Source: Campylobacterota bacterium
GTDB taxonomy: Bacteria > Campylobacterota > Campylobacteria > Campylobacterales > Arcobacteraceae
Length of the DNA: 37,790 bases
Assembly (NCBI GenBank): GCA_003643835.1
Contig: QMKX01000014.1
Location: 1-37,790, forward strand
Reading direction: 5' to 3'
Below the pieces are notes generated by a model, which was not told the origin of the DNA, made no database searches, and saw only the letters and a program-made list of their open reading frames with translations. Position 1 is the stretch's first letter, and each line of letters begins with the position of its first letter. This document shows positions 1 through 10,190 of this stretch, piece by piece. The translations under genes were made by a program, and so were the position numbers.

Positions 1-406
1 GATGTCTCGTTCGTGCTCCTTGATACAGATGTAAAATCTGTGTCAATTCCTAACTCACGGTAGCAAGCGAGTTGCTACTATAGATGTCTCGTTCGTGCTT
101 TGCGAGAGACGAGGCAGGAGTGACGAGGGACGATATGGACTATTATATTCTTGGAACCGCGAACTTGTTCGGGCTAATCATTCAAACTATTACAAACAAA
201 AATATATTTTATTTATTGGTATCACGCTTCAAGCGGACAAACTATCATTGTGAGGCAAAGCCGAAACAATTCAGCTACAATGGTTCGCTTTAGATAAGAG
301 ATGTCTCACTCGTGCTATCGCTTGACAGGCAAAAGCCTGTCTATCGCTCCCTAACGAGTGGTAGCAAGCGAGTTGCTACTATAGATGTCTCGTTCGTGCC
401 TTGCTA
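1..406. repeat. Non-coding region with two nested-hairpin repeat units
   Basis: No credible gene is visible here. Two related units of about 82-84 bp lie at 1-82 and 300-383. Each begins with a 17-nt word, GATGTCTCGTTCGTGCT or a variant with two changes; carries a central hairpin of different sequence; continues through CCTAAC; and ends in a conserved 24-nt block containing the perfect inverted repeat GTAGCAA-gcgag-TTGCTAC. The opening word recurs after each unit at 83-99 and 384-400. The unit hairpins are 20-30/36-46 (11 bp, one wobble) and 324-330/335-341 (7 bp, perfect). Between the units are two shorter repeat words, 102-138 and 153-173, that recur near 10 kb. The second unit ends 7 bp from the stop codon of the convergent MFS gene. 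Function unknown. Confidence 0.75.
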
Positions 407-1645
407 TCAACTATTCTCTTGTTTGCTGTCGTCTATTTGTTTACTTGAATAATACAACGCCACCAAAAGCAAAACTATAGTCCATATATACAAAAATGTA
501 TAACTAGTGAAGTTTAGCACAACACCCCCAACGATAGAAAAAAACATACCCAACGACATAATATTTGTTTTCAAAGCCGTATATATAGGTCGTTTGTCTT
601 CAGGAGCTATGAGCAGTATCATATTGCCAGAGCTGATACGATTGCCATCCATACTCGCACCTATGACAAAAAATACCACAAAATACCACCACAAATCAAA
701 AGCAAACAAACTCAAAACTATAGCAAATATAGACATAGATATAGTGATATTTGATATAAGTTTGTTTAGACCCAAACCACTTAACTTCGCCCACAATATA
801 TTACTAATCATAGCTCCTGTCATCTGCGATGTGATAAGCAAACCAATAGTAGCACCATCAAGTTTAAAATTTTCACTAGCATCTATGATGACAAACGGCA
901 AAGCAAAAAGATATGAAAATGCCAGAGTATATGTGGCTATGTGTATCTTGAGTTGCTCGTCCTGGGCTAACATCTTGGCACTATTTTTCAAAAACAACCT
1001 AAAGCTCCGCTCTTTTGTCCGTAAGTTTGTCTTGATAGGTTCGTTCACGGTGGCTATAGCTATATATCCACATGCCATGACAAATGACGATGCCACAAAA
1101 AGCACTCCAAAACTAAAAGGAGCATCATAAGTATGTAAAATATATCCAGCTACGAGCCCACTACCAAGTGCTCCAAGTCCAGAGAAAAATTGTCTCATAG
1201 ACATAGTCTTGCCTCGAAACTTATGGCTAAATAGTTTAGCTAGTATCTCACGAAAATATATCGCACCAAACCCAGCAGAAAACGAAAATACAAAAAGCCC
1301 TATGCCTATAAACCACAAAGTCAAATTATGATTATCGTCCCCTATATATAGTATAGCTACACCTATAAAAAACCACGACAAAAACCTCGCCAGTAAAACT
1401 CGCCGAAAATACCTCAACATCTTAGGATATGTTTGTGCATGAAAAGCAGCATACATCTGTATGATGATAGCCCCACCTCGCAAAAGTGAAGAGAACAAAC
1501 CTATAAGTATAGGACCGCCACCAAAAAAATTAACCATAAGAGGCAGTATAGTATGTGGCTCTGCTATAGTTGTGCCAATAGATAGGAAAAATCCATGAGC
1601 TATGTTTTTGTAGTGGTCGCTTTTTTTGTCTGCTGGTTTTAGCAA
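407..1645 (-). CDS. MFS-type transporter, 12 predicted membrane helices
   Basis: A 412-residue polytopic inner-membrane protein, the usual size of a major facilitator superfamily permease. About a dozen hydrophobic segments are spread along the chain, with a basic cytoplasmic stretch between the halves around residues 200-225 (NEPIKTNLRTKERSF). The substrate cannot be read from sequence. It starts with TTG and overlaps the end of hisC by 7 nt, so it is probably translated from the same mRNA as the moaD-moaE-rho-hisC row. That linkage does not suggest a substrate. It ends just before the repeat region at 1-400. Family assignment is good; anything more specific would be a guess. Confidence 0.85.
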   Translation of the reverse strand: MLKPADKKSDHYKNIAHGFFLSIGTTIAEPHTILPLMVNFFGGGPILIGLFSSLLRGGAIIIQMYAAFHAQTYPKMLRYFRRVLLARFLSWFFIGVAILYIGDDNHNLTLWFIGIGLFVFSFSAGFGAIYFREILAKLFSHKFRGKTMSMRQFFSGLGALGSGLVAGYILHTYDAPFSFGVLFVASSFVMACGYIAIATVNEPIKTNLRTKERSFRLFLKNSAKMLAQDEQLKIHIATYTLAFSYLFALPFVIIDASENFKLDGATIGLLITSQMTGAMISNILWAKLSGLGLNKLISNITISMSIFAIVLSLFAFDLWWYFVVFFVIGASMDGNRISSGNMILLIAPEDKRPIYTALKTNIMSLGMFFSIVGGVVLNFTSYTFLYIWTIVLLLVALYYSSKQIDDSKQENS

Positions 1646-7760: not shown

Positions 7761-8252
7761 ACTTTAAAATTATATTGTTTTTATTTGTTTACAAAATACA
7801 TAAATTATAGGTTGAAAAAACGAATAGAGCCTTCTGATTAAACACCATTAAATATCGTGTGTTCTTGGTTTATCACAAATGCTACAATATCATACACAAG
7901 CAACTTAATATTCTTTGATAAAACAACTCTTTTTATTTCTCTGAATTACTATAAAACCCTTTGCTTGTAGGCTTTGTTTTATCTTTTTTGGATACAATGG
8001 AATATAAATATAACAAAGGTTTTAAATCACAGTAAACTATAGACGACAAAATATCATCTATAGTCAAACGATTGGCCCCGAATAAATTTGGGGTTCCGAG
8101 ATTGTTGCCAAATATTTAAGATTAACCAGTCCGTGGTTCCGATAGCTTCCAAATATTTCCACTTTTTGTGGTTAGATTTATTTAAAAATGCTACAATATC
8201 AAACAAAAAGAATTAAATCATCTCAAATCAGAAGGCACAATTTAAAAAAGGG
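7761..8252. other. Gene-free, repeat-bearing decayed DNA
   Basis: No intact gene on either strand. The stretch holds an 11-nt inverted pair GCCTTCTGATT (7829-7839) / AATCAGAAGGC (8226-8236) framing about 400 bp; a 16-nt direct repeat, AAATGCTACAATATCA, starting near 7877 and near 8187; a hairpin (arms 8036-8043 and 8057-8064); a palindromic GGAACC-family repeat at 8074-8100; and a tandem partial copy of its flank at 8135-8158. On the minus strand two short open stretches look protein-like (a tract containing KKWKYLEAIGTTDW, and one containing SSIVYCDLKPLLYLYS), but neither forms a full gene. This may be gene debris or an untranslated RNA. Confidence 0.5.
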
Positions 8253-9926: not shown

Positions 9927-10190
9927 ATAGTTTGCTATTTTAAAAGCCCCACATATTAGCTTTGGGGCAAAATATGTTCTATACTCGGAACCGCGAACTT
10001 GTTCGGGGCAAAATATGAAACAAACAACAAAATAGAATACGATAGCCCATATCGTCCCTCGTCGCTCCTGCCTCGCAACTCATCCCGGAACCCCGTAACT
10101 TGTTCAGGGTCAAAGTTTCAACTTTTTTTAACTCAAGAGTGCCTCTAAAAATCCAACATAAAAAGAATTTTTAAGGTTCGTTAAAGAAAA
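9927..10190. repeat. Intergenic palindromic repeat cluster
   Basis: Between the two PEBP genes are a hairpin GCCCCA/TGGGGC (9946-9968); a GGAACC-family palindrome at 9985-10010 (core CCGCGAACTTGTTCGGGG), identical over 21 nt to 153-173; a block at 10047-10074 that is the inverse complement of 111-138 with one mismatch; and a diverged GGAACC-family copy at 10084-10109. No coding potential is seen. The order A, inverted B, A' suggests a small composite non-autonomous element or recombination hot spot. Confidence 0.65.

Follow-up and report, generated by a model that had tools for sequence, protein, structure and literature searches.

Small palindromic elements of one Arcobacteraceae genus, probably non-autonomous and tolerated in coding DNA

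At the beginning of a contig from an Arcobacteraceae genome, two repeat units begin and end alike and carry different hairpins in their centres. What kind of sequence keeps its pairing while the paired bases change? A sequence-only reading of the locus had named a folded-DNA recombination site, a structured RNA and a non-autonomous element as candidates. The stretch of DNA analysed here (the window, 37,790 nucleotides) is the whole of contig C14 of a 1.43-Mb, 40-contig MAG, and the genes around the units in it, for rho, EF-Tu and RNA polymerase subunits, are chromosomal and have housekeeping functions. Other contigs of this genome are likewise given by a C and a number, and loci in the genus-mates G001, G002 and G003 carry the genome as a prefix.

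Structure of the repeat units

The two units lie where the sequence-only reading had placed them (Table 1). The opening 17-mer that it regarded as common to both is identical at 15 of its 17 positions only (1-17 compared with 300-316), and the same 17-mer, said to be repeated after each unit, is exact behind the first and slightly altered behind the second. The closing 24-mer is indeed identical in both units (59-82 and 360-383) and contains the perfect inverted repeat GTAGCAA/TTGCTAC. The differing central stems and the additional outer pairing in unit 2 were found as described. Unit 1 starts directly at the end of the contig, and the first 123 bases of the window are also present on C21. The partial unit that follows unit 1 is probably the remnant of a tandem array.

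Table 1. Features of the repeat locus in the window. Copies in the training sets of the covariance models R1 and R2 match their own models by construction.
Feature	Position	Strand	Remarks
Unit 1	1-82	+	type B linkers TCCTTG...CAATTCC; R2 match 3-79, 85.1 bits, in training set
Central hairpin, unit 1	20-46	+	TTGATACAGAT / ATCTGTGTCAA; arms 20-30/36-46, 11 pairs including one G-T
Terminal hairpin, unit 1	60-78	+	GTAGCAA-GCGAG-TTGCTAC; arms 60-66/72-78
Partial next unit (opening 17-mer again)	83-99	+	exact match to 1-17
Other dispersed repeat families, as a mosaic between units 1 and 2	100-299		similar layout at C10:46756-46984
Unit 2	300-383	+	type A linkers TATCGCTT...CGCTCCCTAAC; R1 match 302-361, 89.3 bits, in training set
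Outer clamp, unit 2	307-360	+	CACTCGT (307-313) / ACGAGTG (354-360), full pairing
Central hairpin, unit 2	324-341	+	GACAGGC-AAAA-GCCTGTC; arms 324-330/335-341, 7/7 pairs
Terminal hairpin, unit 2	361-379	+	GTAGCAA/TTGCTAC; arms 361-367/373-379
Partial next unit after unit 2	384-400	+	opening 17-mer with 1 mismatch
MFS transporter gene	407-1645	-	stop codon adjoins the repeats; gene-sense strand of the element also minus

Allowing up to three mismatches, the terminal hairpin occurs at two places and the opening 16-mer at four places in the window, compared with 0.08 expected per shuffled window in either case. When the units were folded as single-stranded DNA, the z values were -4.9 for unit 1 and -3.5 for unit 2, and none of 200 shuffles equalled either. 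Eight of ten tested copies fold at a z of -1.8 or lower; the other two, at z 0.20 and 0.35, do not stand out from shuffles.

The copies can be folded into three hairpins. On the written strand, TGTCTC is followed by the first outer arm of 7 bases. The central hairpin then stands between two linkers, the second of which ends in CTAAC, and after these come the second outer arm and the terminal hairpin. On the gene-sense strand the element begins with ATGAGC and ends with GTGAGACA; these ends are not inverted repeats, the paired arms being internal. Two types of linkers exist, type A (TATCGCTT ... CGCTCCCTAAC) and type B (TCCTTG ... CAATTCCTAAC), and the window has one unit of each.

Most copies of this genome have GTAGCAA/TTGCTAC as their terminal hairpin, and GTAG pairs with CTAC inside its stem; GTAG is absent in copies that have GCACCGTGTGC instead. 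Other terminal hairpins (GCAC/GTGC, GCCC/GGGC, GCAG/CTGC) are all fully paired, and two more variants pair at only 4 of 7 positions. The outer clamps CACTCGT/ACGAGTG, CATTTGT/ACAAATG and CACTTGT/ATGAGTG have seven of seven pairs, and a few copies have only two to four. A loss of the outer clamp in copies with AACTCGTG was considered and ruled out, as the many copies of this kind retain five of the seven pairs.

At C2:8674-8782 and C24:2399-2490 the central part of the element is replaced by repeated words like GATAACAGATACCGGATACCAG. G001 and G002 contain degenerate short-word runs such as CTAGTCTCTAGTCTCCAG beside or within elements, and on G002:C64 a run of this type stands in place of the central hairpin.

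Further repeat families were seen in the same DNA. A second palindromic family, GGAACC-(variable)-GGGGC with a changing centre, is found at 8073-8103 and 9980-10117 of the window and adjoins ATATCGTCCCTCGTCGCTCCTGCC repeats; a loose GGAACC pattern gave 17 matches in the DNA of this genome that was examined. A third family (GTGAGGCAAAGCCGAAACAA ... ATGGTTCGCTTT) is present at 230-300 of the window and at loci on C10, C2, C24, C25, C4 and C9, often directly 5' of the element. In the DNA examined, its two patterns had 12 (GTGAGGCAAAGCCGAAACAA) and 9 (ATGGTTCGCTTT) matches.

Copy number, distribution and covariation

The sequence-only reading had made its case depend on further copies in the genome, and such copies exist: the exact terminal hairpin was found 16 times and a reversed control pattern not at all. 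With unit 2 as the query, blastn gave 29 matches in this genome, and the union of the covariance searches with R1 and R2 gave 31 places at E <= 0.02. Near-full copies number about 27 when duplicates and fragments are removed, i.e. without C21:28730 (the window start, through the contig overlap), C31:15197 (the sequence of C5:72401 at another contig end), C9:53788 (which reaches barely beyond the opening 14-mer) and the fragment C10:17401. The repeat is about 78-83 bp long, and its copies are dispersed, both single and in tandem. An exact tandem pair with an 83-bp period lies on C24 and a near-exact one with a 78-bp period on G002:C62; array copies are probably under-counted. Ten of the 80 contig ends of the MAG lie inside a copy or about 150 bases or less from one.

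Conserved ends around a variable paired centre, and also the tandem arrays, are features that an attC-like folded-DNA recombination site would share. The boxes of attC sites are RYYYAAC and GTTRRRY. This box pair was not seen in the units when they were inspected by eye, the array units of 78-83 bp follow each other without cassettes between them, and single copies occur within genes. We regard an attC-like site as most improbable, and positive evidence for this part of the earlier interpretation is absent. The part that proposed a non-autonomous element has fared better: dispersed copies, tandem arrays and insertions opposite empty sites (see below) all speak for it.

Among the genus-mates, the searches with R1 and R2 together found four places in G001, six in G002 and one in G003 (E <= 0.02). 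Of 104 family genomes, R1 was positive in three, which all belong to this genus, and in none of the 100 outside it; since the one diverged type B copy in G003 was matched with R2 and not with R1, the numbers obtained with R1 are minimum values for type B copies. In the order, R1 was positive in 3 of 398 genomes, one of which (G015, from another family) is a chance match to a coding stretch without the TGTCTC end. One exact 23-mer pattern, compared with the GTDB species collection, was present on four contigs only, all from two genus-mates. Plasmid and phage records contained no match to the element. Spread by viruses was considered on account of two viral contigs with the 23-mer pattern and was rejected, as both matches lie in a phage gene without the rest of the element and are due to chance. 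Among the genomes searched, the genomes compared being fragmented MAGs, the element is confined to one genus.

The earlier observation that pairing is kept while the sequence changes was made on two units, and it holds for the larger set. In an alignment of eight copies made from sequence alone (A5), the central helix has two-sided changes at six of its seven pairs, and the whole structure has 12 two-sided-change cells, where shuffles give 2.9 and slid controls 1-2. Alignment A6 has two-sided changes at all seven central pairs and 59 two-sided-change cells (12.6 shuffled, 7-16 slid), its 43 matches in 38 distinct rows being fitted to the model and thus leaning toward the structure. Type B copies by themselves have 8 such cells (2.4 shuffled, 0-2 slid). 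The arms of 19 copies were also read by hand. They form 18 distinct arm pairs in which 115 of 126 positions are paired, a count that is favoured by picking the best hairpin; when the partners were permuted, the mean was 84.0 and the maximum 104, and none of 100,000 permutations reached 115. The central arms, for which covariation had been proposed as a check, covary in A5, in A6 and in the set read by hand.

The cores ACAGAT/ATCTGT, AGGC/GCCT and GGAT/ATCC are present with both linker types. Because the same cores occur in both, an exchange of hairpins is favoured over slow or repeated parallel compensation. From these common cores, the central hairpins look exchanged between copies, in keeping with the active exchange of structure that the sequence-only reading had offered beside selection.

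Copies in genes, insertion sites and orientation

The element also occurs in frame within protein genes, of which the sequence-only reading had made no mention. One copy (C5:24347) lies inside carB and is read on the opposite strand, in frame. The carB frame is open for 1115 aa, compared with 1097, 1097 and 1098 aa in G001, G002 and G003. The copy encodes NELGIDTDFKSVSRSTSETS, and the protein alignment shows 13-14 more residues in the interdomain linker than the three genus-mates have; E. coli CarB has no such stretch at this place, which is the passage into the second half. This copy is truncated and has no terminal (third) hairpin. It was matched by blastn with a type A query (E 5.6e-9), independently of any model. 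A structure model of CarB was uninformative (mean pLDDT 37.9 from a 4-sequence alignment).

The second case is a complete copy on G001:C37, in frame within a 122-aa, Rpn-like PD-(D/E)XK ORF (Pfam PDDEXK_2). Here 31 residues stand opposite 5 in the G002 homologue, i.e. 26 additional codons or 78 bp. The ORF is shorter than its homologues, whose open frames have 214 and 306 aa, and may be a decaying gene or pseudogene; carB is the only intact conserved gene with an internal copy. In-frame copies just upstream of an HMA ORF and of ORFs that we take to be fic-like, znuA-like and hisH-like were excluded as coding, their native starts being ambiguous.

In the 57-nt core of 35 copies, the three gene-sense frames are open in 17, 1 and 18 copies and the antisense frames in 3, 22 and 14, and selection for an open sense frame, looked for in this core, found no support. 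The element is therefore permissive rather than built to code.

Empty and filled sites can be compared directly at a palindrome of about 125 bp (ATTTCAGG...CCTGAAAT, on C6, C25, C2, C4 and C10). Of its six copies, four are empty and two are filled with the element at the same point; the two filled copies may go back to a single insertion that was multiplied together with its host. Here TTTT was replaced and no duplication was seen. In the Rpn-like ORF, GACAACCATG / GACAACAATG flank the insert and coincide with the period boundary of the element itself. Clean target-site duplications were seen at none of the three insertion sites (carB, the Rpn-like ORF, the 125-bp palindrome).

C16:5301 and G002:C33 have nearly identical upstream flanks, and the outer arms of the element differ between them on both sides. 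An orthologous site in three species was considered and rejected: G001:C43 shares only the last 60 bases or so, and only the former two look orthologous. This is the only site seen that is common to two species. Elements also lie upstream of nifU-like genes in two species (G003:C70 and C31:11796), apparently at different sites.

By crude ORF calls, 25 of 34 loci have the element on the same strand as the neighbours or host gene only, 4 on the opposite strand only, 4 are mixed and 1 has no gene in range; the fragments C10:17401, C2:85442 and C11:9513 stand outside this count and would score opposite, mixed and same, respectively. Counted neighbour by neighbour, 40 are on the same and 10 on the opposite strand (binomial p 2.4e-5, with related copies and hence counts that are not independent). 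Replication-strand bias, transcription or selection could be the cause of this co-orientation.

For a structured RNA, the orientation bias would fit transcription. The copies would then act in mRNA as hairpins between cistrons or in the 3' UTR, kept in sense orientation for their part in stabilising or processing messages (a use like that of ERIC or BIMEs). Many copies do lie 30 nt or less from an ORF end, and some lie between apparent operon partners, e.g. nifS-nifU. Yet no Rfam family corresponds to the element: the whole window at gathering level gave only six tRNAs, and six loci with copies, searched at E <= 0.5, gave no match at an element. A terminator-like site is absent at the units, as a search for intrinsic terminators (GC stem plus T run) in positions 1-1700 found none versus 1.2 expected in shuffles. 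Furthermore, the carB copy, the tandem arrays and the lineage-restricted spread look selfish rather than regulatory, and the single site common to two species also argues against a function in the message. We consider mRNA elements unlikely.

Relation to known repeat systems

The reading that we hold to be probable unites all copies in a single family of small palindromic elements which are non-autonomous, tolerated in coding DNA and similar in behaviour to the Rickettsia palindromic elements (RPEs). RPEs are described, in passages of the papers cited, as palindromes of about 100-150 bp that lie in frame in many Rickettsia genes and occur also in Wolbachia (PMC10969869, PMC3767692, PMC2229807, PMC3733652); a table in one of them gives terminal inverted repeats of 12 bp (PMC2229807). 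Like RPEs and the Wolbachia palindromic elements, as these passages present them (PMC10969869, PMC3767692, PMC2229807), our element is a short palindrome with several variants, whose copies lie between genes and also, in frame, within genes that are unrelated to each other and include housekeeping genes. It inserts in frame without destroying the gene (carB has no stop; the second case is the short ORF), and its hairpins are stable by folding z and covariation. It differs from RPEs, as far as those passages go, in its length (78-83 bp versus 100-150 bp) and in having three hairpins instead of long stem-loops with terminal inverted repeats; it also differs in its Campylobacterota host and in the exchange of the central hairpin. 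A direct reading of the ends showed no terminal inverted repeats. Because these are missing, we do not claim membership in the RPEs, with which the element was compared by their descriptions. To our knowledge, no transposase is known for RPEs or the Wolbachia palindromic elements.

How such an element moves bears on a further alternative. A strand bias like the one found here is expected of a lagging-strand ssDNA process. The element could be a non-autonomous derivative of an HUH transposon (IS200/IS605 or RAYT) that is moved as ssDNA via its hairpins, in line with the subterminal position of the hairpins and the absence of a clear target duplication. The Y1 tyrosine transposase, however, was found in none of the four genus genomes (Y1_Tnp, PF01797; genomes 94-99% complete), compared with 5 of 14 named genomes as a control, and GTAG lies within the stem and is not a tag before it. 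This derivation seems rather improbable to us. The same two traits, the transposase and a GTAG tag outside the stem at one end, are also what separates the element from the REP/RAYT system. In the passage on REPs in PMC3733652, GTAG-tagged REP/RAYT and CGTC-tagged REPs resemble our copies in being palindromic, dispersed and mostly near gene ends, and CGTC REPs too have no dedicated transposase; REPs are 20-40 bp long with a tetranucleotide tag at one end, whereas here GTAG is a part of the stem.

Classical bacterial MITEs (Correia, RUP, ERIC) are likewise small, non-autonomous and sometimes with ORFs, but the present element has ends without inverted repeats and no clear sign of a target duplication. 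BOX and bacterial interspersed mosaic elements are modular mosaics of small units. In this they are similar to the present element, which has another sequence and in which the exchanged module is the hairpin core within one unit. BIMEs are mentioned in a part of PMC2229807.

For an RPE-like element, the following course of events can be envisaged. A mobiliser would lay a copy into a new site, and arrays would grow or shrink by slippage, leaving partial 17-mers. At the central hairpin, conversion or template switching would replace one centre by another or rewrite it, giving new arms that still pair. Copies in genes would survive where they fall in a linker and where orientation and frame stay open.

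A possible, more tentative interpretation goes further. On this view a palindromic element that invades proteins would exist outside the Rickettsiales, and its central hairpin would be actively swapped. Conversion or template switching would place new self-complementary cores into a conserved frame, such that copies could differ in their hairpins and, in genes, in the inserted peptides. The element would have spread without any known transposase. The 'selfish' palindromes previously described in frame are from bacteria whose genomes are reduced, Rickettsia and Wolbachia. A literature search for palindromic or repetitive elements of Arcobacter or Arcobacteraceae came up empty, and one for MITEs of Epsilonproteobacteria yielded nothing but a Thiomargarita paper. 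The repeats explain a common kind of place at which the contigs of this MAG end. A counterpart in an Arcobacteraceae genus with genomes of 1.3-1.5 Mb would demonstrate that elements of this sort also originate in other bacteria, and as the genus has both empty and filled carB genes, a direct test is possible. The interchangeable central hairpins, finally, are a natural record of how paired sequence gets rewritten.
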